A stretch of 64,000 bases of DNA from Lentibacter algarum (GTDB lineage: Bacteria > Pseudomonadota > Alphaproteobacteria > Rhodobacterales > Rhodobacteraceae), in the NCBI RefSeq assembly GCF_018860975.1, contig NZ_JAHKQI010000008.1:249746-313745 (forward strand), given 5' to 3'. The translations under genes and the position numbers were made by a program. This document shows positions 6,077-17,103 of the stretch, piece after piece (position 1 is the stretch's first letter; every line of letters begins with the position of its first letter). The notes beneath the pieces are model-generated. The model was not told where the DNA came from and did not search any database. It saw only the letters and a list, made by a program, of their open reading frames with translations.

Positions 6077-6166
6077 GGATCGGTGGCCGAGTGGTCGAAG
6101 GCGCACGCCTGGAAAGTGTGTAGGCGGGTGACCGTCTCCAGGGTTCGAATCCCTGTCGATCCGCCA
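6077..6166 (+). tRNA. tRNA-Ser (anticodon GGA)
   Basis: A class II tRNA of 90 nt including the encoded CCA. The acceptor stem GGATCGG (6077-6083) pairs with TCGATCC (6156-6162, one G-T pair), followed by discriminator G and CCA at 6164-6166. The anticodon loop CTGGAAA lies at 6109-6115 with GGA at 6111-6113. A long variable arm and a CAGGG-TTCGAAT-CCCTG T-arm follow. The gene is intact although its 3' end is the left attachment site of the downstream island: the inserted DNA starts right after the CCA. Confidence 0.95.
6153..6166 (+). repeat. attL core (3' end of tRNA-Ser)
   Basis: The 14-bp sequence CTGTCGATCCGCCA is identical to 17090-17103. It covers the last bases of the T-arm, the 3' acceptor strand, the discriminator and CCA. 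This is the usual crossover segment for tyrosine integrases that use tRNA genes. The base before it differs (C here, T at the right copy), so the match ends there. Confidence 0.88.
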
Positions 6167-6790
6167 TAAACTTTACTTAAGGCATTGATTTATCTTAGTT
6201 AATTCAAAGTAAAAATTTGACTACCCCACATCAAAGCCCACATCGATTGTTGTCGCTTATGTTTCTTTCTGGGCTCGTGGCCCATTCCGAAATGGTAAAA
6301 GGACAAGTCAAATGATCAACCAAAGAACACCCAACCCAACCCAGTTCAACGCTTGATCCTCGATGCCAGCTCTGATGCTTTGATTGCTACAGCCGCTCAG
6401 GCGGAGGAGGGTACCTGCTCAGCCATCTTCTATTTCGCACCTGCAGCGAATGTCCGCATTCCGCCCCTTAACGACATTCGTTTTTTTCGGCCCATTGCGG
6501 ACCTTGGCCAAGTGGTCGGTCGCTGCGTCACAGCTTCCCCGAAGCGGACATTGGAGCAGGTGCGCAGCATTTTGACTTACCCGTGGTCTGCACTGCGGAC
6601 GAAGTGCCGTTTCGGTGCAGCTGCTCCAATGGCGGCTTTCGAGAAAACAGGCTTCAGATCGACCGCAATATTGTGTCTTCCAAAAACGATCGTTTTTGGC
6701 ATTTGCAATACGCTTTCAAAAGCCTGAGAATGCAGAGGTGGTCCGTTTTTTTCGACCAGTTTCTCGCCGGGTTAAGCTATAGCGTCGGTT
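6167..6790. other. Gene-free left end of the island with palindromic repeat debris
   Basis: I see no convincing gene in these 620 nt. An open frame at 6353-6727 has no ribosome binding site and its translation follows repeat DNA. The dispersed repeat unit lies at 6441-6466. A degenerate inverted copy follows at about 6538-6573: CGCACCTGC with AATGTCCGC on one side, GCGGACATT with GCAGGTGCG on the other. Further diverged fragments occur to about 6660. This looks like decayed palindromic repeat sequence next to the attachment site. Confidence 0.6.
6441..6466 (+). repeat. Dispersed island repeat, copy A
   Basis: Sequence CTGCAGCGAATGTCCGCATT followed by CCGCCC. It shares the pattern GCAGCGAA-N2-TCCGC-N2-TCCGCCC with copies at 9406-9432 and 13765-13791. 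All three are in intergenic gaps of the island. Copy A also has an inverted partner about 100 nt downstream. Confidence 0.7.
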
Positions 6791-7627
6791 TCATTTCAGG
6801 CGGCAAATCTTATGTCGCCTATGTGGCTCAATTCCAACGCTTTGCTTTCGCAACTCAAGCGGTAGGATTTGCTCGCTTGGCCAGTTGCCGCTGACCAGTG
6901 CGCCGTCATACCCCCCAGTCAACCCAGCGTTTCCCATCGCGGCGGCGGCCCCTTGATAATCGTAGTCGAGGATTTCGACGCTAAAACCACTTTCTGATAG
7001 CCTGCCATATCGGGTCTGTTGGTGGCCATCATGCGGTGGCATCCCGATAACACCAGCATTTAACCAGGTTACTCCCGCGACTTGCTTTTCGAAAGCAATC
7101 CCGCAGTGACCGCCGATCACGACATCAACTGGTGTGCCAATGGCGGCAACCTCCGCCTCAAAAACTTCCGCAGGGCTGGTCGGCCAAATAAAGGCCGCCA
7201 AATCTGTCGCGCCACCGTGAAGCACGGCGTGTTGTTGTCCCCGGTTTTCAAAGATAATTCCGTCAGGCAGGGCAGCCATCCACGCGCGGTCCGAACTATT
7301 AATCCGGGCCTTGGCAAACGCGTACCAATCGCGCGAAACTAGGTCACAGACACTGCCATCCTCGAACCCGCAACCGCAATCATCTGCGCCGACTTGCAAT
7401 TGACGTTCGCAATTGCCTGCAACGACGGTCCAGCCACGCGTGCGGATCAAGGCAACACAAGCCGCTGGATCAGCGCAATAGGCAACAATATCGCCGGTAC
7501 AAATGACATTTTTCGCTGGATATTCCGCCGCAATTTGATCAAGCGCCTGCAATGCGTGCAGGTTGGAATAGGGCCCCCCAAAGATCAAAAGGTCACCCTC
7601 AAGCCGCCCCAAATCTCGAAATTTCAT
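6791..7627 (-). CDS. Metallophosphoesterase family protein (variant calcineurin-like)
   Basis: A 278-residue calcineurin-like protein. Recognisable blocks are GGPYSNLHAL near the N-terminus (position of the usual D-x-H-G-N-L-x-A-L), CTGDIVAY (GD motif), GNCE (the GNHD position), a lone HGG, and GGHCG near residue 175 (GHT position). The first metal-binding D-x-H pair is replaced by GGPYSN and GNH by GNC. I recall these variants as shared by a Rhodobacteraceae family, so they may be family features rather than decay. The ATG at 7627 follows a GGGG Shine-Dalgarno and was preferred over a GTG at 7645. It is divergent from the symporter gene across a 173-bp gap. Activity and substrate are unknown. 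Confidence 0.75.
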   Translation of the reverse strand: MKFRDLGRLEGDLLIFGGPYSNLHALQALDQIAAEYPAKNVICTGDIVAYCADPAACVALIRTRGWTVVAGNCERQLQVGADDCGCGFEDGSVCDLVSRDWYAFAKARINSSDRAWMAALPDGIIFENRGQQHAVLHGGATDLAAFIWPTSPAEVFEAEVAAIGTPVDVVIGGHCGIAFEKQVAGVTWLNAGVIGMPPHDGHQQTRYGRLSESGFSVEILDYDYQGAAAAMGNAGLTGGYDGALVSGNWPSEQILPLELRKQSVGIEPHRRHKICRLK

Positions 7628-7800
7628 TTTGCATCCCCGCACCACTTCGCAAAGACTGCGTCAGCTCTGTGGCACAGGCAAGCCAATTACCGACATGTTG
7701 CGGGCCGCGTCACGGAAAATTGTAGTGCGCGTGTGAGGCCGCCCTGATAGCCGACGGCAAAGGCAGATATAAGTCGACGCCAAGAAGAGGAGAGCCGACC

Positions 7801-9195
7801 ATGCAACCTGCCGTTATTTTGGGCGTTTTCGCCGCCATTATCGCCGCTACCTTGGTAATGACACCCCGGCGAACGACAACCGAAGCCTTTTTTGCCGGGC
7901 TCAATCAAGACGGCACGCCGCCCAGATTGTGGACGCTGGTACTCAGCCAGGCGACCACTTGGATTTTTGCGCGTTCTTTGATGAATTCCGCAATCCTAGG
8001 TTACTACTATGGCATTGCCGGCGTGCTGGCCTATGCTGCATATTACGGATCGTTTTTGACGGGCGGATTGATTGTCGCGCGGTTGCGTGCTTCGGGCGCT
8101 GGATCAGTTCAGGATTGGCTGGGCGCGCATTTTGGCGCGGTAGGCCAAAGCTGTTACAATCTCGTTGTCTCTCTGCGTTTGTTGTCCGAGGTTTTCGCCA
8201 ACCTGATCGTTGTTGGGTTGATTTTCGTGGCGGTAATGCCGGAGTTTTCAGAACACAAAAACCTCGTCATTCTACTCGTTACGGTTCTCGTATTGTCCTA
8301 TTCCAGTTGGGGTGGGCTCAGTGCCGCCCTACGAACAGACGTGATCCAAATGGCGGTTTTCATCGTGGTGTTCGGCGCGGCGTTTGTTGCGCTTATTGCG
8401 TCACCCAGCTTTGATTTGGGCGCAGTGTTAACTGCCGACGGTGTTTCGGGAGGGTACAACGGTTGGGTTTTGCTGTTGGTCGCCTTTCTGCAAGTATTTT
8501 CTTATCCAGCACATGACCCGATTATGATGGACCGCGGGTTTCTTAGCGATGAAGTGATAACCCGCCAAAGCTTCTTGCACGCTTTTTGGATATCGACGCT
8601 TTGCATCTTGGGCTTTGGTTTCTTTGGGATTCAAGCCGCTTTAGCCGGGGCGACATATGAGGCCCAATTGATCGGCACTTGGTCGACTATGCTGCCCAAT
8701 TGGGTGTTTGCAGCACTAATGGTTTCATTACTCGTTTCAGCCCTCTCAACGCTCGATTCAGCGCTTGCGTCATCGGCTCGGCTGGCCACCGAAGAATTAG
8801 GGATGGCGACACGCAGCTTGTTGGGCGGGCGTTTGGCGATGGTGGCCATTGCTGTTCTCGGGGCATTGTTGACGTTGTGGGGCAATCAAACGCTGTTTGA
8901 CGCGGTCGCGGTGTCGGGAACCGCATCGATGTTTTTAACGCCAATTTTATTGGCTGGTTTGTTCCTTGATCGTCGTGTCAGCCTTTGGGCCTTTCTAGTC
9001 AGCTTTTCGGCGGCAATGGTTGGTGCAATGCTCTACTTTGCTCGGGACGCTGCCTGGGCAAAAACTGTTCTTTATGAAGGGCACAAGTATGAACAGCTTT
9101 TGCAAATCTGCATTGTTGTGTTAGCCATTGGTTTCGTAGCCGTAGTGATTGGATCAAGTCGTCGGCCAAGCAACGCAGAACACTCGGTCACATAA
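7801..9195 (+). CDS. Sodium:solute symporter (SSS) family transporter
   Basis: A 464-residue polytopic membrane protein with about 12-13 predicted helices. The central segment VSALSTLDSALASSA (about residues 305-320) matches the Ser/Thr-rich helix of the SSS family that contributes to the sodium site. AGGAG precedes the ATG by 8 nt. It lacks the long extracellular loops of the sugar transporters in this family and looks closest to small organic solute symporters; the substrate cannot be read from the sequence. It is island cargo, divergent from a metallophosphoesterase gene, so the two could share a control region. Confidence 0.85.
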   Translation: MQPAVILGVFAAIIAATLVMTPRRTTTEAFFAGLNQDGTPPRLWTLVLSQATTWIFARSLMNSAILGYYYGIAGVLAYAAYYGSFLTGGLIVARLRASGAGSVQDWLGAHFGAVGQSCYNLVVSLRLLSEVFANLIVVGLIFVAVMPEFSEHKNLVILLVTVLVLSYSSWGGLSAALRTDVIQMAVFIVVFGAAFVALIASPSFDLGAVLTADGVSGGYNGWVLLLVAFLQVFSYPAHDPIMMDRGFLSDEVITRQSFLHAFWISTLCILGFGFFGIQAALAGATYEAQLIGTWSTMLPNWVFAALMVSLLVSALSTLDSALASSARLATEELGMATRSLLGGRLAMVAIAVLGALLTLWGNQTLFDAVAVSGTASMFLTPILLAGLFLDRRVSLWAFLVSFSAAMVGAMLYFARDAAWAKTVLYEGHKYEQLLQICIVVLAIGFVAVVIGSSRRPSNAEHSVT

Positions 9196-9803
9196 AGCAA
9201 ATTTATCAAGCGCAATGAGTACTTGGAAACATAGGCGTCGCGGCTACACAACGACGTCATGCTAAACAACTGCTAGGCCCATCCAATCAAGTTGCAAAGC
9301 CCGCTTCCTGCGCATAGCTGCCCTTGGTGAATGGTGCGGTAAGATTTACTGCGCAGGAAGGAGTGTGAATGTCAGTTTTTCACAATCCGAAACAATGACC
9401 GCGCACTTGCAGCGAAGGTCCGCAATCCGCCCTTCGTACCGATTGCAACTACCACGGCCCATAGCTGCTGTACTTCTGCACCTTGCGATGCTGCGGTGCG
9501 GTCCATTGAAGGCGACATTCCTGCATCTCGCAGCATTAGAACAGCCAAAACGCCAATCAGCCGACAAAGCTTCCATTTGTTAACAAGGCCAAAGTGCTTG
9601 ACTGTCCTTTGAGTGGCAACGACTAGCTCTTCACACGGCACAAATGCACCAGTGTTTACGTGTCGCGAGCGAAACGATTGGCGCTGATATTTGGTATGCC
9701 GTGTTTGCGGGAGCTGAAACGTAACACGGTTGAGCAATTGCGATTGATGAATAGGCTAGATGCGATAGGCTCTGCGAAATCTTAATTATTGGAGTTGTGA
9801 AGT
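9196..9803. other. Gene-free 608-nt gap with dispersed repeat copy B
   Basis: I see no convincing ORF, RNA gene or IS here. The frames at 9346-9737 read through the repeat and lack start signals. Copy B of the dispersed island repeat is at 9406-9432. The promoter of the downstream mcrBC operon must lie in the right half, but I could not identify clear -35/-10 boxes. Confidence 0.55.
9406..9432 (+). repeat. Dispersed island repeat, copy B
   Basis: Sequence CTTGCAGCGAAGGTCCGCAA followed by TCCGCCC. It matches copy A (6441-6466) at most positions and copy C (13765-13791) slightly less well. Confidence 0.7.
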
Positions 9804-12323
9804 TTGCAAGACTTTGATGAAGGCGACCGCAGAAACCGCTTAAGGATCGCGCAGAGAGAACGCATTAATGAAATTGGACGAACCGATATTGAAACTGCAA
9901 TGGCAGAATTCGATCAATTGGGCGAGAAAGAGTTCCTGAAACGATATGGATTCGGGAAATCCTTGAGATGGATCATCGTCAATGAGGGGCGCGAGTATCC
10001 GACAAAGCCTATTGTGGCCCGGGCTATAGGGAAATTCTTTGATGGAGTTGTTCCTAACAAGGATGACTTTTTTAAGAAGAAGGGAGAAGATGAATCGCGC
10101 GACATTTTGCAACAATTGGCTTTCGATGTAAGAGATGTCAAAGAAATGCCTGCGGATCAGTCTCCCTCAGTTCTCAATCGAGCCCAAATTGAAGCTGCGA
10201 TGGATGCTTATGACAGCTATCGTACTAATGGCGCGCATGGGGGCGTCTTTAGCGCCTTTGGCGAACCACGCGACTACTGGGTCCGGTCATCGCGTGAGCG
10301 CGAAAATCGCGTCTACCCGACAAAACCGCTGATCGGTTTCATAGTCAACAAGACTGAACTGAACGGTGGGTGGGGGCAAAAAACGGATGCTGCCGCGCGT
10401 CTTCACAATGCAGGATTCATCATCGTGGATCAGAATGATCAGCCTGTTGAACGCCCTGATCGCTACGAGCATCTGATTCAAGGCGCAGACCGGATCATTC
10501 TCTGCGTGCTGAACTATTTCATCGAACCTGCCCGTGAGAATGCAATGTCGAAGGTGTCCATCCGGTCCGGTGATCTTATCACAAAGCTAGGTATAAAAGA
10601 GCGAACCCCAACAATTCACCGAACACTAAAGAGCCAAGACCTACAACGTGTTGCCAATCTCCCCGAGCCAGCGATTTCCGATCAGGCTGATAGTCGGGAC
10701 ACAGTTTTCACTTTTTCGCTTGGTTACCAAGAAAGCCGTAATGCAATGATATCAGAACCTAACACTAAAAAAACCTTGGCCACGAACTTAATCCTTTATG
10801 GCCCTCCGGGCACGGGCAAGACCTATCGAACCGCGTGGGAAGCCGTTCAGCTTTGTTTGGGTGAGAAGGCTGCATCCGAACTCAAAGGCAATGCTCAACG
10901 AGGGGCTTTGATGACCGCATATCGCAAGCTTATACGAGAGGGGCGTATCGAATTTGTGACCTTTCACCAATCGACGTCCTATGAGGAGTTCGTTGAAGGA
11001 CTGCGACCGGAAACAGAAAGGGATGAAACCTTCGACACTACGACAGATCCAAGCGCGACGGGTGGCTTCCGTCTGCGGGTTGAAGACGGAGTTTTCAAGA
11101 GGATCGCCCGCCGCGCTGATGCTAGCCGTGGGCAGAGTTCGACGGGAGAGCGGCTTTCGCTTGACGGGCGCAATGTTTTCAAAATGTCGATCGGCGCTGT
11201 GGCGGTTCCAGAGGAAGCCGGAGTTTTCGATGAGGCAATCACTGAAAGCTGCGCTATCTTCGGGTTTTCCCGCTCTGATTTTTCGGGCGACGAGTTTACC
11301 GAACGTTCCGCAATCAAAGCTCGGGTCGAACAAGACTATTCCGATGAAGGCTCGGAGTTTTCTCTTACCTCAGCTGTGCAAATGACAGACATCTTCCGCA
11401 ATGACTTGAAGCAGGGTGACATCGTCCTGGTCAGCAAGGGAAACCTACTGATCCGCGCGATCGGGATCGTCGAAGGCGACTACGAATTCCACCCGAGGGA
11501 AGGCACCGAAACTTACCCGCACCGCCGAGCTATGCGCTGGCTTTGGGTGGACGAAGCCGGAATGCCTGCCAACGAATTCTACAACATGGCTATTTCTCAA
11601 CGCACGATTTATCCTCTGCGCAAGCAAGAGCTGAACATTGCGCTTGTGGAACGATACATGAATTCTCAATCCATTGATGAACCCGTATCGCCTGAACCGC
11701 ACGTCCTCATAGTCGACGAAATCAACCGGGCGAATATCTCCAAAGTCTTTGGCGAACTGATCACACTTCTTGAGCCTGACAAGCGGCTTGGGCTTGAAAA
11801 CGAAATCCGCCTGACGCTTCCTTATTCGAAGAAATCTTTCGGTGTGCCTCAAAATCTGCACGTCATCGGCACAATGAACACGGCTGATCGTTCTATTGCG
11901 CTCTTAGATACCGCGCTACGTCGTCGATTTTCTTTCAAGGAGTTGTTACCCGACCCATCCGTTCTCTCGAGCAACGTCGAGGGTGTCGATCTGCAAAAGC
12001 TGCTTTCTACGATCAACGAACGCATCGAGTATCTGTTCGACCGAGAGCATCAAATCGGGCACGCTTACTTCACAGGCTGCCAGTCGCGGTCAGATATCGA
12101 GAGCGTCATGCGAGACAAGGTAATCCCGTTGCTTGCAGAGTATTTCTACGAGGACTGGTCGAAGGTTGCGTCCGTTCTAGGCGACTCTAGGCAAGACCGG
12201 TCTCGTTTCCTTAACGCAAAACAAATTGCTGTCCCCGCGGGAATGACCGAAGATGACTTCTCTGGCGAAAAGCTGAGATGGACTGTGAAAGACAAATTCG
12301 ACTTCTCGGAGTTTGCAGCCTAA
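9804..12323 (+). CDS. mcrB: McrB: AAA+ GTPase of McrBC restriction with duplicated N-module and EVE-like insert
   Basis: An 839-residue motor subunit of a modification-dependent (type IV) restriction enzyme. Two similar N-terminal modules share IE-x-AM and YPTKP (residues about 27-110, YPTKP at 65-69; and 127-209, YPTKP at 171-175). They resemble the ScoMcrA N-terminal head domain. Walker A GPPGTGKT is at 333-340, Walker B with DEINR at 638-642, the McrB signature MNTADRS at 691-697 and the sensor DTALRRRF at 702-709. Walker A and B are about 300 residues apart instead of about 75 in E. coli McrB. The extra segment (about 457-620) looks like an EVE-type modified-base reader. TTG start with GGAG 9 nt upstream. 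It overlaps mcrC. Confidence 0.9.
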   Translation: MQDFDEGDRRNRLRIAQRERINEIGRTDIETAMAEFDQLGEKEFLKRYGFGKSLRWIIVNEGREYPTKPIVARAIGKFFDGVVPNKDDFFKKKGEDESRDILQQLAFDVRDVKEMPADQSPSVLNRAQIEAAMDAYDSYRTNGAHGGVFSAFGEPRDYWVRSSRERENRVYPTKPLIGFIVNKTELNGGWGQKTDAAARLHNAGFIIVDQNDQPVERPDRYEHLIQGADRIILCVLNYFIEPARENAMSKVSIRSGDLITKLGIKERTPTIHRTLKSQDLQRVANLPEPAISDQADSRDTVFTFSLGYQESRNAMISEPNTKKTLATNLILYGPPGTGKTYRTAWEAVQLCLGEKAASELKGNAQRGALMTAYRKLIREGRIEFVTFHQSTSYEEFVEGLRPETERDETFDTTTDPSATGGFRLRVEDGVFKRIARRADASRGQSSTGERLSLDGRNVFKMSIGAVAVPEEAGVFDEAITESCAIFGFSRSDFSGDEFTERSAIKARVEQDYSDEGSEFSLTSAVQMTDIFRNDLKQGDIVLVSKGNLLIRAIGIVEGDYEFHPREGTETYPHRRAMRWLWVDEAGMPANEFYNMAISQRTIYPLRKQELNIALVERYMNSQSIDEPVSPEPHVLIVDEINRANISKVFGELITLLEPDKRLGLENEIRLTLPYSKKSFGVPQNLHVIGTMNTADRSIALLDTALRRRFSFKELLPDPSVLSSNVEGVDLQKLLSTINERIEYLFDREHQIGHAYFTGCQSRSDIESVMRDKVIPLLAEYFYEDWSKVASVLGDSRQDRSRFLNAKQIAVPAGMTEDDFSGEKLRWTVKDKFDFSEFAA

Positions 12324-13627
12324 TGCCTGCGTTTTCCCTACGCGAATGGGAAACGCTGCCCTATGGTGAGGGGGATGGCTGTATTCCCGAGCACTTTGCC
12401 GGACGTCTTGCGGCAATGGCGAAGACATCAGCTTTTGCAGGCAAGGGTGGTGGTGTTCTCGAGGAGCGCCGTCATGAACTGCGGGCACGGGGGGTCGTCG
12501 GTGTTCTTGCAGCCGAGGGCTGCAGTCTTGAAATCCTTCCCAAGATCGACGTCCAGCAACAGGGCGGCGAGGTGGTGCAGAACGCGGCCATTCGCAAACG
12601 TCTTATTCACATGCTAGCGGTCGCCTTGGATCTCAAGATCGAAACGGGGCAGTTCACAGAACTCGACTGGCAGCGTGAAACCCTTCTGGAAATTCTTATC
12701 CGGATCTTCTGTAACAAGCTGACCGATGCCGTGCGTCGCGGTATGCCTCGCCAGTACATCACCCATGAGGATGACCTCGCGGCTTTGCGCGGCACACTCG
12801 ATCTGCCTCGTCAGTTTACGCGTCATGCGGCGAACCCTTCGAGACTGGCGTGCAAATTTGATGAGTTATCGGATGACATCGCGCTGAACCGCATTATGAA
12901 AGCGACCATCGCGCATCTGTTCAGAACGTCACGAAACGCCAGCAATCAACAAAGCTTGCGAGAGCTGGCCTTCGTTTATGCCGATATTGCCGAAGTTTCT
13001 GTTCCCGCGTTAAAGTGGGAGGAGGTCATCATCGACCGGACCAATCGCGCATGGCAGGAGCTGTTCGGGATGGCACAACTGTTTCTTCGAAATCGTTACC
13101 AAACGACGAGTGCCGGTTCCGTCCGAGGGACGGCACTTCTGTTCGAAATGAATACACTTTTTGAAGAGTATATCGGTCGGTTGATCACGCGCGCATTGGC
13201 AGGAACGGAGTATCGGGTTGCTCTTCAAGGCGGAAGGCTGTCTTGTCTGACATCGGTCGACGATGAACGCGCGGTGTTCCAGACGAAGCCAGATATCCTG
13301 ATCTGGTATGCGGGACAGGTTGTGCATGTGATCGATACCAAGTGGAAGCGGATTTCCTCGCGTATTGATGATCGCAAGCAAGGGGTTTCCCAAGCCGACG
13401 TCTACCAGATGATGGCCTACGCTCACCTCTACAAAGCCCCTCGTCTGACGCTGCTTTATCCTCATCACGAGGATCTTTCAGATGTGGAGGGCCTTCAGGC
13501 TCGATTTCGAATTTCGGGTCAGGAAAAGATCATGGAGACTGCGAGCGTGGATATCGCTAGAGGCGACAACATGGTCGCCCGTTTGAGGAGCATTGTCCTC
13601 TTGGCGACCGAAGAGGTGCTGGTTTAG
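12323..13627 (+). CDS. mcrC: McrC: nuclease subunit of McrBC restriction system
   Basis: A 434-residue nuclease subunit that associates with McrB and cuts DNA carrying modified cytosines. The ATG at 12323 sits in a TAATG junction with the mcrB stop, giving translational coupling; the longer frame from 12278 was rejected. The N-terminal part (PAFSLREWE) begins like a McrB-binding domain. The C-terminal PD-(D/E)xK nuclease core shows TKPDI, then VIDTKWK about 18 residues later, and QADVYQMMAYAHLY as the trailing helix. All catalytic residues appear to be present, so the system is probably functional. Confidence 0.92.
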   Translation: MPAFSLREWETLPYGEGDGCIPEHFAGRLAAMAKTSAFAGKGGGVLEERRHELRARGVVGVLAAEGCSLEILPKIDVQQQGGEVVQNAAIRKRLIHMLAVALDLKIETGQFTELDWQRETLLEILIRIFCNKLTDAVRRGMPRQYITHEDDLAALRGTLDLPRQFTRHAANPSRLACKFDELSDDIALNRIMKATIAHLFRTSRNASNQQSLRELAFVYADIAEVSVPALKWEEVIIDRTNRAWQELFGMAQLFLRNRYQTTSAGSVRGTALLFEMNTLFEEYIGRLITRALAGTEYRVALQGGRLSCLTSVDDERAVFQTKPDILIWYAGQVVHVIDTKWKRISSRIDDRKQGVSQADVYQMMAYAHLYKAPRLTLLYPHHEDLSDVEGLQARFRISGQEKIMETASVDIARGDNMVARLRSIVLLATEEVLV

Positions 13628-13983
13628 GCATCTTGAGCTTGGTGCCAAATGCCTTCCGAAAGGATTGTAGGCTTGTCGTTCAATTCATGGCATTCAGAAA
13701 TCTGCGGCGGATTTAACGAGTGACGGAACGTCCGCTTCGTCAACATTGATCTGGTAGCTGCGTACCCGCAGCGAACTTCCGCTTTCCGCCCATCTCATGG
13801 GAATTTTCAGTAAGTGACCGATGAAGGGGTAGGGGGCTGCTCGGCCCTTCCCCCGGGGGGTAAAATTTGGCGCTTTGAGCTGGTAGTCGTCTCACACAAT
13901 CGCGGCTTCCAAAATTTTTAAACTTGAAATCTTGTGATTGTTCAAATGTTCTGGGCACATTGTCGCACACAGGGGAAATAAAG
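13628..13983. other. Gene-free gap with dispersed repeat copy C
   Basis: There is no convincing gene in 356 nt. The dispersed repeat copy C is at 13765-13791. A G/C-rich imperfect inverted stretch (about 13829-13861, GGGGGC...CCCCC) could be a weak terminator for mcrBC, but it lacks a T-tract. Confidence 0.5.
13765..13791 (+). repeat. Dispersed island repeat, copy C
   Basis: Sequence CCCGCAGCGAACTTCCGCTT followed by TCCGCCC. It shares the pattern GCAGCGAA-N2-TCCGC-N2-TCCGCCC with copies A and B. Confidence 0.68.
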
Positions 13984-14193
13984 ATGAAGAAAACAGTGTA
14001 CGCAGCACCTCTACTGGCTGGGAGTGAAAGCGCCTACACTGCAGAAGGGTGTCAGATCTTCGCCAGCGAGATGATGCAATCTCATACGGAGGCCTGTGTG
14101 GCTGGCTATCATGCTGAGAAAGCGCGTTTAGAGGGCAGGACAGTCACCACCTGCAGGACTGTTGGGGCCACCACAACCTGCGTTGAGGGGTGA
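13984..14193 (+). CDS. Small cysteine-containing hypothetical protein (69 aa)
   Basis: The ATG at 13984 is preceded by AGGGGAAA at a good spacing, supporting a real start; the in-frame ATG at 13924 has none. The product has a basic MKKT start with only a weak hydrophobic stretch (residues 5-13) and four cysteines (C23, C38, C57, C66). Its C-terminus is Thr-rich (TTCRTVGATTTCVEG). The cysteine spacing and tail resemble small exported proteins, but the signal peptide is unconvincing. It lies between mcrC and the replication block of the island. I do not recognise the family. Confidence 0.5.
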   Translation: MKKTVYAAPLLAGSESAYTAEGCQIFASEMMQSHTEACVAGYHAEKARLEGRTVTTCRTVGATTTCVEG

Positions 14194-14301
14194 TAAGCTG
14201 GTTTAGGCTCCGCAAACGGCCCAAAAACGACCATGAACGAGCGAAATGGTTGATGCAGGTAGGCTGCTTTAAGTGGGGTTCTTTAAGTAAACGGAGATTT
14301 T

Positions 14302-14601
14302 TTAGCTGAAAAGGTCGAGTTGTGCGCGGGTGGGCGCTAGGGGGGTAAATCCCATGGAGGGTATCGCGCGCCACCAAGACGGGCACTGGTGGCGCTCTCT
14401 GAGCCTGTGGCAGGTATCCATGGAGGCAATCTCCAGGAGGTTCTTAGCTTCTTCGATCTGTAAGCGAGCTAATTGAGGCTCAAGCATATTGCTATGAAAT
14501 TGTGCGGCGTGTCCGATTAGTATCTCGACCTTTGAAGCTGACGCTGTTTCGTCTGAAACGGTCGAACTGATACGTTGCAATAACCGGTCGATTTTTTTCA
14601 T
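14302..14601 (-). CDS. Hypothetical protein downstream of the Rep-like gene (99 aa)
   Basis: A 99-residue, mostly helical and charged protein; the region SNMLEPQLARLQIEEAKNLL is predicted helix and could be a short coiled coil. No family is recognised. Its ATG overlaps the TGA that ends the repeat-encoded frame at 14598-14804 (ATGA), suggesting translational coupling to that frame. It is the last gene of the leftward alpA/rep series and converges with the 69-residue gene. Confidence 0.55.
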   Translation of the reverse strand: MKKIDRLLQRISSTVSDETASASKVEILIGHAAQFHSNMLEPQLARLQIEEAKNLLEIASMDTCHRLRERHQCPSWWRAIPSMGFTPLAPTRAQLDLFS

Positions 14602-14804
14602 TTTGGTTTTCTATTCAGTTTTGGCCATCGTTCGTTTCTTTTTGTGTAGCTTGGTAGGTTAAGGATGTTCCAGAAATCCGCACGACATGATCCTAGAATG
14701 GTGTCCAGCCGTTCCAAAAATCCGCACAGGGCGTCCCAGAAATCCGCACGGTAGATAATCAACCGTTCCAGAAATCGGCACAGGTTCGTTCCAGAAATCC
14801 GCAC
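14598..14804 (-). other. Repeat-encoded reading frame in phase with the Rep-like gene
   Basis: This open frame is in the same phase as the Rep-like gene ending at 14811 and is separated from it by a single TGA plus two sense codons. Its translation contains repeated ISGTNLCRFLERL / ADFWDALCGFLERL units because it reads the iteron-like repeats. It ends in an ATGA overlap with the next gene. It may be a former or readthrough C-terminal tail of the Rep-like protein, an independently started ORF (GTG at 14804), or simply the origin read as protein. Confidence 0.4.
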
Positions 14805-14807
14805 GGG
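14667..14807 (+). repeat. Five iteron-like direct repeats (putative island replication origin)
   Basis: Five near-identical units of the form GTTCCAGAAATCCGCACGG start at 14667, 14711, 14733, 14765 and 14788. Differences are single bases (for example AAAAATCC in unit 2, GTCCC in unit 3, ATCGGCAC in unit 4). Spacings are 44, 22, 32 and 23 nt; two are close to two helical turns. They lie directly downstream of a winged-helix Rep-like gene, as iterons do in iteron-regulated origins. The repeats are seen directly; the origin function is inferred. Confidence 0.75.
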
Positions 14808-14810
14808 GTT

Positions 14811-15287
14811 TCATTTTGTGTTGCGCGGTGGTGTTCCACCTTTTGGGTTTCTTTTTTGTGGTTGGATAACTTCGAAATCAGCTCCTGGTTTCCATTGCTT
14901 ATAGAGGCACCGGCCTTGGTTGATATTTGAAGAGGGTAAAGGAATCTCAGTTATTTCGTATTGGTGGCCGTTGGCCTTGCCTGCAACGCCGAGCTCCGCG
15001 CAATGAGTGACTACAATGAACCCTTTTCGTTGAAGGTCTCGCTGCGCGTTACCTGCGGTTTCAGAATTGATCCCCGCCCATTCCCCCAACTGTCGAACGT
15101 AGGCGCTAATTTTACCATTATTGTTGGCGTTAGGGCCTTTCCACTCAAGTTTTAGCCAAGGATATATAGCCTGAGCGTTCCCGCTCAAAGCTCTCCATGC
15201 TTCAGTTTCCATGGTTGAGCGATGCATCTTCGTATAGTGCTCTGGAGCGGACTTCCCGCGCTTGTGTTGCTTGTAGACTTTTCTCAT
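14811..15287 (-). CDS. Rep-like winged-helix protein of the integrative element
   Basis: A 158-residue protein. A basic N-terminus (KVYKQHKRGKS) is followed by WRALSGNAQAIYPWLKLEW and a GPNANNNGKISAYVRQLGEWAGI segment. It then has a helix-turn-helix with recognition helix ETAGNAQRDLQRKGFIVV and a wing. This pattern is common in small replication-initiator-like proteins of alphaproteobacterial integrative elements, usually next to AlpA and integrase genes. It begins 5 nt after the alpA stop. The stop at 14811 is followed in the same phase by the repeat-encoded frame over the iteron-like repeats. Initiator function is inferred from context. Confidence 0.65.
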   Translation of the reverse strand: MRKVYKQHKRGKSAPEHYTKMHRSTMETEAWRALSGNAQAIYPWLKLEWKGPNANNNGKISAYVRQLGEWAGINSETAGNAQRDLQRKGFIVVTHCAELGVAGKANGHQYEITEIPLPSSNINQGRCLYKQWKPGADFEVIQPQKRNPKGGTPPRNTK

Positions 15288-15292
15288 CAGTT

Positions 15293-15502
15293 TTAGCTTC
15301 TGAGCTCTGGCTTAACGCCGCGGTCAGACAGCCAATTCTGAATGTCATTTTCACGCCAGGCGACTGCGCGCTTGCTGAGTTTGATGGGTTTGGGGAACTC
15401 GCCATCTTTCATCATAGCATAGATTGTAGAGCGGGAAAGGCCGACCGAAGCAATAACACTTGGAAGGCGGAGAACGCGCGTGTGTGAAGTCTGAATTGTC
15501 AT
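15293..15502 (-). CDS. AlpA family transcriptional regulator / excisionase
   Basis: A 69-residue MerR-like winged-helix protein with the family pattern LRLPSVIASVGLSRSTIYAMMKDGEFPKPIKLSKRAVAW. AlpA-type proteins activate integrase genes or act as recombination directionality factors in P4-like elements. The ATG has AGGATC upstream at 8-10 nt. It is the first gene of the leftward rep series and lies about 130 nt downstream of the integrase stop on the same strand, leaving room for its own promoter (15503-15638). Confidence 0.88.
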   Translation of the reverse strand: MTIQTSHTRVLRLPSVIASVGLSRSTIYAMMKDGEFPKPIKLSKRAVAWRENDIQNWLSDRGVKPELRS

Positions 15503-15638
15503 TGAATTGATCCTGTTAGGTTTCTAGAACCCCAAGATCAGCCAATAATGTCTATTGCCCGATGCACCAGCCTATACAGCGGACAATTACTGTTTATCAC
15601 CTTAATATATATGTTTTTTTGGGAGTTACCGCCCCACA

Positions 15639-16922
15639 TTAAACCAATCTGAGGCCGTTCACGTTGGGCAGGTTCCTTGATTCCTGAGATACATACTCAG
15701 CCCAAGCATTCATCATCAATCTGCGGCGCTCAACAAGTGTTTCGCGATGGTAAGCCTGCTCCACACGGTTGCCAATTCGATGCCCAAGAGCGAGCTCCGC
15801 CATTTCTCTTGGATACTCCTTGCGGCCAGCCCAGTTTCGCGCTGTTGCTCTCAGGCCGTGTGGAACGGCTGGACGATTTGTCTGAGGATCACGCCATCCG
15901 GCTTCCTCTTCTCGAATGCCGAGTTCTGGCAAGGATAGATCGTTGAGAACCTCATATGCATGCATTCGACGCATGACGCCTGACAGGGCCATATCACTTA
16001 GCTCCCCGCCTCTTGGCGCCGGAAACACAAAGTCTTCTCCCACAGTCCTCGGAATGCTGCGTAGGAGGGCAAGGGCCGCATTTGAAAGGGGAACAGCGTG
16101 CTCTTCTTTCGTCTTCGTTCGATGTGCAGGGATGAGCCAAATCGCTGTCTCAAAATCAATCTCTGACCAGATAGCGCCACGCGCTTCCCCGCTTCTTGCC
16201 CAAGTTAGCGCAAGAAACTCTAAGCATCTTGCGGATGCGCCCTGACGTTTCCTTAGTTGGCTCATCCAATCTGGTATTTCTTCAACGGCGAGGGAGGGTT
16301 GGTGGACAACTGGTTTGATTTTTGAGGGCTTTGGGAGGAGCATGTCGAGATTGCCGCCCCACGTTGCCGGGTTTGGGCCCTCTCTCCATCCGCGAGCGGT
16401 GGCAAAAGCTAACACAGCTTCTATTCGCCCACGCAAACGACTGGCGGTTTCATTCTTCGTGGCCCAGATTGTGGTTAAGACCTCTAGAACATCAGAGACG
16501 GTGATTTCTGTGACAAGCTTAGTGCCCAATTTCGGAACGGCATATGTACGCAAAGTGCTTTCCCATTGAGCTATATGTTTAGCATTGGTCAGTTCGCCTG
16601 CTTTCTTTTCGAGAAGCGCTGCCATAGCAACTTCGAAAGTTGGCGTTGATCTGACCTTTTCGCGCGCAGCTAACGGGTCACCACCATCTCTGGCAATTTG
16701 TCGGTTCTGTGAGGCCACGACACGCGCCTGAGCTAATGTAACGAGGGGATAGCTACCAAGTCCAAGGTCGCGCCTCTTACCTCTTATTACGAGGCGCTGA
16801 CCCCATCGCTTGCTCCCAGAATTGGAGACAATCAGCATTAGGCAATCACCGTCGCTGTACTTTCCTTGTCGCTTCACAGTGCTGCAAAACGCTGCCGATA
16901 GTCCTTTTGCACGTTTAGGCAT
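15639..16922 (-). CDS. int: P4-type tyrosine site-specific integrase
   Basis: A 427-residue tyrosine recombinase. The N-terminal arm-binding domain has the DUF4102-like pattern (YSDGDCLMLIVSNSGSKRW, LGLGSYPLVTLAQAR). A SAM-like core-binding domain follows, then the catalytic domain with the arginine in WARSGEAR, lysine in RTKTKEEHAVPL, HGLR, the LGH histidine and the tyrosine in QAYHRE. All catalytic residues are present. The ATG at 16922 was chosen over an upstream GTG at 16949 because AGGCG and GGGGGG lie just upstream. The promoter-proximal end faces attR, 168 bp away, as in other tRNA-targeting islands. It probably targets the 3' end of tRNA-Ser(GGA). Confidence 0.92.
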   Translation of the reverse strand: MPKRAKGLSAAFCSTVKRQGKYSDGDCLMLIVSNSGSKRWGQRLVIRGKRRDLGLGSYPLVTLAQARVVASQNRQIARDGGDPLAAREKVRSTPTFEVAMAALLEKKAGELTNAKHIAQWESTLRTYAVPKLGTKLVTEITVSDVLEVLTTIWATKNETASRLRGRIEAVLAFATARGWREGPNPATWGGNLDMLLPKPSKIKPVVHQPSLAVEEIPDWMSQLRKRQGASARCLEFLALTWARSGEARGAIWSEIDFETAIWLIPAHRTKTKEEHAVPLSNAALALLRSIPRTVGEDFVFPAPRGGELSDMALSGVMRRMHAYEVLNDLSLPELGIREEEAGWRDPQTNRPAVPHGLRATARNWAGRKEYPREMAELALGHRIGNRVEQAYHRETLVERRRLMMNAWAEYVSQESRNLPNVNGLRLV

Positions 16923-17089
16923 ATCGCCTGGCCCCCCATTTAGCCCCACAACAAGCGGTAAACCACAACCCGCCCCACATAAAAGTCAAGAATACTGTAG
17001 ACGTGATTGGACATATATGGAAGGTATATGACTGATTTATATGTGATTAATGGATGTTGGTGGACGCTTGAAGATTATAATATGGCGGT

Positions 17090-17103
17090 CTGTCGATCCG
17101 CCA
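17090..17103 (+). repeat. attR core (duplicated tRNA-Ser 3' end)
   Basis: CTGTCGATCCGCCA is identical to 6153-6166. Immediately upstream TGGCGG (17083-17088) forms a small inverted repeat with CCGCCA, so the right junction is also a 21-bp hairpin-like palindrome. Core chromosome resumes at once: enoyl-CoA hydratase starts about 100 nt later. Confidence 0.88.

Follow-up and report, generated by a model that had tools for sequence, protein, structure and literature searches.

A predicted reader domain within the GTPase motor of a Lentibacter algarum McrB, likely exchanged as a cassette among related proteins

A predicted mcrB gene of Lentibacter algarum raises the question of why a restriction motor should carry a large additional domain within its AAA+ core and whether that domain is inherited together with the motor or separately from it. 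The gene is located at 9804..12323 on the + strand of the window, by which we mean the entire 64,000-nucleotide stretch analyzed (positions 249,746 to 313,745 of contig NZ_JAHKQI010000008.1), and its 839 codons, beginning with TTG, encode an 839-aa AAA+ GTPase subunit with a reader inside the motor. It occurs once in its own genome, its product matches PF07728 (AAA_5; E 1.6e-15), and the best PDB match is the McrB of T. gammatolerans (TgMcrB, 6ut3; E 3.2e-56). The adjoining mcrC gene (12323..13627, +) encodes the endonuclease and GTPase-activating partner (PF10117, McrBC family; E 2.3e-74), with the mcrB stop codon and the mcrC ATG overlapping in the TAATG at 12321, and the two genes constitute a complete McrBC pair at 9804..13627. 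The motor motifs consist of Walker A (GPPGTGKT, residues 333-340; 10800..10823, +), a Walker B region (VLIVDEINR, residues 634-642; 11703..11729, +; DEINR starting at 638), and MNTADRS (residues 691-697; 11874..11894, +), which conforms to the MNxxDRS consensus described in PMC7680126 and contains the NxxD signature. MNTADRS is identical in all 22 aligned McrBs of the in-motor-reader kind, counting the window protein, and an ALRRRF motif is likewise found in the mcrB product. Its predicted role is GTP hydrolysis together with modification-dependent cleavage. Taking three claims jointly, we consider it likely that mcrB encodes the GTPase subunit of a Type IV (modification-dependent) McrBC restriction system, that its insert has the fold of an EVE/YTH-type reader, and that this insert is an exchangeable cassette among related McrBs, the motor remaining nearly unchanged.

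A preliminary description of the locus, made from the sequence alone, had placed the Walker A and B motifs about 300 residues apart. The spacing we measured is 305 residues, versus ~79 in short-spaced McrBs such as that of locus L021 (L numbers are our locus labels). TgMcrB (6ut3) aligns to residues 330-438 and then again from residue 633, and the unaligned gap between these TgMcrB-like parts is 194 residues here and 64 in TgMcrB. Within this gap, between helix 2 and Walker B, is the predicted EVE/YTH-like reader (residues 455-628; 11166..11687, +). A structure model of residues 440-632, built with 32 sequences, was confident (predicted local distance difference test score [pLDDT] 88.8; predicted template modeling score [pTM] 0.84) and has its elements in the order strand-helix-strand-helices-strands. 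A Foldseek search of the PDB returned 266 matches at E ≤ 10, of which the 21 at E ≤ 0.001 were all YTH domains, each with a probability of 1.00. Among the best 50 of the 266, 44 were YTH and the six others were MJECL36, PH1033 (twice), Atu2648, Rpa0253, and VcaM4I; all but the last of these we take to be EVE family members. The entries 2p5d, 1wmm, and 2hd9, as well as VcaM4I (6yex, E 4.3e-3), rank below these 21 YTH matches at E ≤ 0.001. Thus, the EVE-type reader previously suspected inside the motor is upheld by both the model and the fold search, which did not place the insert outside the EVE/PUA superfamily. On this modeling evidence, we assign the insert within the AAA+ core to the EVE/YTH-type (PUA-like) domains. 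Aromatic residues are conserved at positions 488, 493, 560, 579, and 581, and may correspond to the aromatic cage of YTH domains.

The same domain also occurs outside this setting. A profile of the insert aligned with 10 domains that precede the motor of short-spaced McrBs at an hhalign probability of 99.4% (E 3.1e-21, 123 columns), versus 0.1-1.9% for four control profiles of heads or motors, and one of these 10 N-terminally placed relatives has a weak PUA match (E 0.2). Together with the structure model, this homology rules out an unrelated linker. When PDB sequences were searched, the insert profile hit just two (E 0.23 and 0.41), which we took as chance, and the N-terminal reader profile hit none. 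Among 398 genomes of the phylum (own included), the insert profile matched once in each of 27: 16 matches lie inside an McrB motor (the window gene counted), 10 in motor-less proteins of 330-415 aa, and one precedes an McrB motor. Scans of five of the 10 motor-less proteins (L157, L158, L161, L163, and L167) found Mrr_cat in every one, as well as a match to PADLOC PDC-S02 along almost the entire protein; in these proteins, PDC-S02 is an insert-type reader fused to an Mrr_cat nuclease. We also assembled 80 McrB loci from genome records with titles, choosing them by similarity and by two peptide patterns (among the matches listed), and 77 of these could be classified into 12 with the reader inside the motor, 16 with it in front, and 49 with neither by the insert profile, which are not population frequencies. 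The remaining three either had no Walker A in an open frame (L060 and L076) or no motor match (L129). Judged by record title, in-motor matches extend to Acidobacteriota and Firmicutes (L056, L057, and L059). The insert is present in all 22 aligned McrBs (window included), a set chosen for aligning across it, and is missing from other McrBs in the same searches, such as L021-L026, L046, and L047. It is nevertheless no unique oddity, as 43 proteins with an in-motor reader were collected, the window's included.

Several McrBs depart from this arrangement. Four of the 49 without a reader (L061, L077, L122, and L125) have Walker motifs >260 residues apart and no reader match, while in L065, L072, L073, L118, and L126 the same pre-Walker-B site holds shorter inserts, with 208-231 residues from Walker A to B and no match to the EVE/YTH-like profile. 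The Walker motifs of L152 and L156 are 451 and 388 residues apart, respectively, with additional sequence besides the reader ahead of Walker B; in L152 this amounts to ~150 residues, possibly a helix-turn-helix module by eye. Another insertion site is apparent in L078, L079, L091, L122, and L125, in which the FHQS/FHP motif is 154-256 residues after Walker A, as compared with 47-58 in twelve in-motor-reader proteins, and the extra sequence at this other site appears helical by eye.

The key feature of the insert is that its relationships do not follow those of the motor. We compared the 43 proteins having an insert score >100 bits, a set that excludes the weaker in-motor matches (L057-L059 and L066) and from which L018, L020, L038, L048, and L049 were left out as fragments or repeats of other loci. 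Across all 903 pairs, the insert averaged 38.4% identity, as against 60.5% for the Walker A part and 66.9% from Walker B on. Among the 70 pairs that are at least 80% identical from Walker B on, which overlap and retain near-duplicates, the inserts were <50% identical in 30 and ≥70% identical in 37. The distribution is bimodal, with 12, 16, 2, and 3 pairs having insert identities of 20-30%, 30-40%, 40-50%, and 50-60%, respectively, none at 60-70%, and 5, 24, and 8 pairs at 70-80%, 80-90%, and 90-100%. The window protein itself illustrates the pattern: it is 92% identical to the protein of a Leisingera plasmid (L130) from Walker B on and 40% identical in the insert, with corresponding values of 89% and 42% for L041. 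Insert clusters 2 and 5 are each spread over four motor clusters, and motor clusters 6, 7, 8, and 11 each bear two insert clusters. Likewise, approximately unbiased (AU) tests on 41 sequences mutually rejected the motor and insert trees (p 2.3e-9 with the motor data and 1.7e-59 with the insert data); the near-duplicates L139 and L005 had been dropped from these trees, and others such as L008/L051 were kept.

To locate the edges of the exchanged unit, identity was profiled in 10-residue blocks for 43 low-insert and 49 high-insert pairs of a new alignment, for which the counts differ from the 70-pair set. Identity falls after FVTFHQS-SYEEFVEG, ranges from 11 to 63% over residues ~402-631, and recovers at Walker B, and therefore the exchanged unit takes in both the hairpin of helix 2 and the end of that helix. 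The blocks covering the hairpin and the latter half of helix 2 (residues 402-440; 11007..11123, +), which are co-exchanged with the insert, were 28-50% identical in the low-insert pairs versus 53-93% in the high-insert pairs. At the DNA level, L002 and L004 are 75-93% identical over residues 322-401, 33-60% over residues 402-641, and 90-93% over residues 642-701. A pre-sensor-1 patch (residues 662-681; 11787..11846, +) co-varies with some insert subtypes and shows a separate dip at residues 662-671, where identity is 48% in low-insert pairs versus 88% in high-insert pairs; this dip was seen in L008/L044, L012/L013, and L134/L131.

The other end of the protein appears to be replaceable as well. 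The preliminary description had proposed two similar N-terminal modules, and module 1 (residues 24-112; 9873..10139, +), supported by its ScoMcrA (5zmm) match, the module repeat, and the model, is indeed homologous to module 2 (residues 124-213; 10173..10442, +), supported by hhalign and a shuffle test. The two align with an hhalign probability of 95.7% (E 9.6e-9), and their direct alignment score of 49 was equaled by one of 2000 shuffles. An AlphaFold2 model of residues 1-310 (15 sequences; pLDDT 85.3, pTM 0.60) shows a like order of helices and strands twice, followed by a third domain at ~227-305, such that neither the alignment nor the model describes the N-terminus as one non-repeated domain. 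The input alignment for this model had an over-long L043 row, with the extra columns being gaps in the query, an effect we judged to be small. The third domain, composed of helices and strands (residues 222-307; 10467..10724, +), appears winged-helix-like, by eye only, from the secondary structure of the model. Module 1 resembles the ScoMcrA head, with residues 22-74 matching residues 5-57 of 5zmm (phmmer E 0.0024). In a Foldseek search with residues 1-310, ScoMcrA chains (5zmm) ranked first and second with weak scores (E 0.013 and 0.019), and there was no match at E ≤ 0.001; because the 5zmm_B match spans 314 columns, parts resembling the SBD may also be present. The ScoMcrA head is small and of unknown function, and it is the adjoining SBD that reads phosphorothioate (PMC6224610). 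Therefore, a reading role for the N-terminal modules is a guess, and of the earlier claims about them, the resemblance to the ScoMcrA head stands, whereas the suggestion that they widen the range of recognized modifications is weak. L042 and L008 share motor and insert, which are mostly 88-100% identical, and not the N-terminus, which is merely 14-47% identical, and therefore the N-terminal region is able to change on its own. Three of these N-terminal modules are present in L043, and at L034:155-1330 a 392-aa protein combines a module 1-like head with a NOV_C domain. We also searched the region upstream of mcrB with three McrB N-termini for a lost extra N-terminal domain and found nothing convincing.

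From these observations, we propose the following mechanism. By homology, McrB would form a GTP-driven ring and McrC would supply the nuclease. Specificity would be split over two separately replaceable places, namely the N-terminal region, with its two ScoMcrA-head-like modules and further domain, and the in-motor EVE/YTH-type reader. The sequence comparisons show the latter to pass between related McrBs as a cassette that also takes in the hairpin and the latter half of helix 2; a lineage could thereby change its target, a change of specificity that we infer, and keep its motor. The ligand may be a methylated or hydroxymethylated base, and whether this is N6-methyladenine or 5-methyl/5-hydroxymethylcytosine is a guess, with the fold fitting each alike. 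A modified base flipped out into the reader could be felt through helix 2 and the hairpin, and with a hairpin that touches the McrC finger tip, as in TgMcrBC, target binding might then promote McrC-stimulated GTP hydrolysis and cleavage. This finger tip is enclosed in TgMcrBC by Phe260 and Tyr272, two aromatic residues belonging to the helix-2 insert (PMC7680126). Their counterparts by alignment are Leu400, at the edge of the exchanged unit, and Leu424, which is inside the unit and invariant in the 22-sequence alignment. Coupling of reader binding to GTP hydrolysis is a tentative part of this scheme. In its fullest form, a reader placed in the moving AAA+ core and exchanged as one cassette with the McrC-contacting hairpin would co-evolve with the activation switch, as the Type IV counterpart of the shuffling of target recognition domains in Type I restriction enzymes, and recognition would directly gate GTP hydrolysis, all of which we regard as possible without calling it probable.

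On the matter of coupling alone, the reader could instead be a passive tether that occupies a tolerant surface loop and adds affinity for modified DNA without feeding back on GTP hydrolysis. This also explains most of the data, and we give it not far from an even chance. The same domain precedes the motor in other McrBs and adjoins an Mrr nuclease elsewhere, so no special coupling is needed, and the pre-Walker-B site also accommodates the shorter inserts without a profile match, as expected of a tolerant loop. Both these shorter inserts and the extra residues of L152 fit a tolerant site, an observation that cuts both ways. However, contact between insert and motor is suggested by the hairpin of helix 2, which changes along with the insert, as does the pre-sensor-1 patch in some exchanges.

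A number of points weigh against a coupled, exchangeable reader as proposed here. The reader's place on the ring and any coupling are what we infer, and the co-exchange of the hairpin could reflect structural fit rather than signaling. The dip at residues 662-671 is absent from L002/L004 and from window/L041, and because it is lacking in these two exchanges it is not a constant part of the exchanged unit. The exchange itself is deduced from protein families, not from dated events, and the 70 closely matched pairs are not independent. The window insert is also isolated, with a best identity of 49% to any other (6 of 31 others are more isolated), and its function may have drifted as a result. 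As for the fold, the Foldseek template modeling scores of the insert are modest (0.31-0.47 by query length) at identities of 5-13%, and the Pfam EVE, YTH, and PUA models matched none of 32 inserts (E up to 5, within HMMER filters). We use the label EVE/YTH-like because the placement is based upon the fold and upon homology to N-terminal McrB domains, with Pfam being silent. The Pfam matches that did occur among these 32 inserts, namely eIF-1a in four (best E 0.053), WelO5 in one, and Rv2175c_C in one, were taken as chance.

A further possibility is that the insert reads modified RNA, as a YTH domain might, or some other ligand, and that the system senses infection rather than cutting modified phage DNA. 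The closest solved folds are indeed eukaryotic m6A readers, and RNA is the predicted target of the CoCoNuT relatives of McrBC, some of which bear YTH-like domains (PMC11090510). However, the signature here, NTAD, is NxxD and not the NxD of the CoCoNuTs, which rules out membership in that group. In addition, McrC is of a nuclease family, the reader occurs as well in fusion with restriction nuclease domains of the Mrr type, and the YTH domain of TgMcrB binds 6mA DNA (PMC12707154), all of which make an RNA-reading insert unlikely. Least probable of all is that there was no exchange and the insert at its constant position merely evolves faster than the motor, as in an arms race, since the lower mean identity of the insert would fit such gradual divergence, whereas the bimodal identities with their empty 60-70% interval, the mixing of insert and motor clusters, and the AU rejection of a shared tree all disfavor it.

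A tRNA-Ser gene (6077..6166, +), the likely integration target, ends in 14 bp (6153..6166, +) that are a possible att core and are repeated at 17090..17103 (+), just beyond a tyrosine integrase gene (15639..16949, -; Arm-DNA-bind_3, Phage_int_M, and Phage_integrase). G+C content in 1-kb steps is 0.49-0.56 over 6-18 kb, 0.575-0.593 in the first 6 kb, and 0.53-0.61 in later stretches. Given the 14-bp tRNA repeat, the integrase, and the lower G+C content, mcrBC is probably carried on a tRNA-Ser integrative element of ~11 kb (window 6077-17103). In an empty-site comparison within the genus, the gene on the left flank of this element is present in all seven genomes (own included), and the right flank gene lacks a close match in the six others (best, 50%). 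A search of 60 relatives (own included) found an mcrB match of any length in eight, i.e. its own genome and seven further ones, and in none of the six other genomes of the genus; long matches came from relatives such as Leisingera, Rhizobium, and Paracoccus. Among plasmid records, 289 of 72,556 matched McrB somewhere and seven did so over at least 80% of the protein, while 20 of 50,697 phage records matched and none over 80%. Ten viral-collection loci were fetched. One member of the in-motor-reader family is found on an E. coli plasmid (L138, IncY), where it adjoins McrC and is 42.6% identical. Directly upstream of mcrB in L130, L131, L132, and L134 is a gene for a TM0106 family RecB-like putative nuclease; these four records, each of them alphaproteobacterial, are among 13 plasmid records that were fetched.

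Inserts in McrB GTPase domains are already known in general. Such insertions were described in 2024 as 'frequently' present and 'likely' to be specificity domains, and were taken out before tree building in a study that also announces a separate paper on several McrB branches (Bell et al. 2024, PMC11090510). EVE-McrB had earlier been named the commonest EVE architecture in defense systems (Bell et al. 2020, PMC7641849), and a 2025 review describes the replacement of the N-terminal reader by YTH or EVE (PMC12707154). In the consulted parts of the 2020 and 2024 papers (PMC7641849 and PMC11090510), there is no description of an insert lying between helix 2 and Walker B, of its exchange as a cassette, or of the helix-2 hairpin being exchanged along with it. 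Our literature search, mostly without subscription papers, found no account of the exchange of an in-motor reader or of its edges, nor the follow-up announced in PMC11090510. What is added here is the behavior of the insert as an exchangeable cassette. The route from base recognition by McrB to the GTPase ring and McrC looks unsettled, at least in the literature consulted, and the DNA path is still described as debated since McrC blocks the pore (PMC7680126). The main value of the present results is that they allow coupling between reader and motor to be tested more sharply and with existing proteins, since nature supplies pairs in which little besides the reader and the adjacent hairpin differs. 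The results also suggest a way for such systems to switch target while retaining a working motor, and they assign a reader domain to PDC-S02 and to McrBs of the in-motor-reader kind where Pfam shows none.

Comparison with known systems places the window protein among several partial relatives. PDC-S02, a PADLOC phage-defense candidate, has an N-terminal domain homologous to the window insert, but in the five proteins scanned this is followed by a C-terminal Mrr_cat nuclease and there is no motor. ScoMcrA (5zmm) shares an N-terminal head resembling module 1, but it has a single head followed by SBD, SRA, and HNH, likewise with no motor. VcaM4I, an EVE-HNH endonuclease, has the EVE reader fold in a single-chain HNH nuclease lacking an AAA+ motor. 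PcdA of S. aureus is an McrB-family AAA+ protein with EVE domains, but these are two and N-terminal, its Walker motifs are degenerate, it has no McrC, and it is a cell-division protein (PMC10602043). The McrBC systems of E. coli K-12 and T. gammatolerans have in common with the window's system the AAA+ GTPase, Walker A, Walker B, MNxxDRS, the helix-2 hairpin, and an adjoining McrC. In those two, the reader is N-terminal (DUF3578 and YTH, respectively) and the Walker motifs are closer together, whereas the McrB of the window has its reader inside the motor and other modules at its N-terminus.

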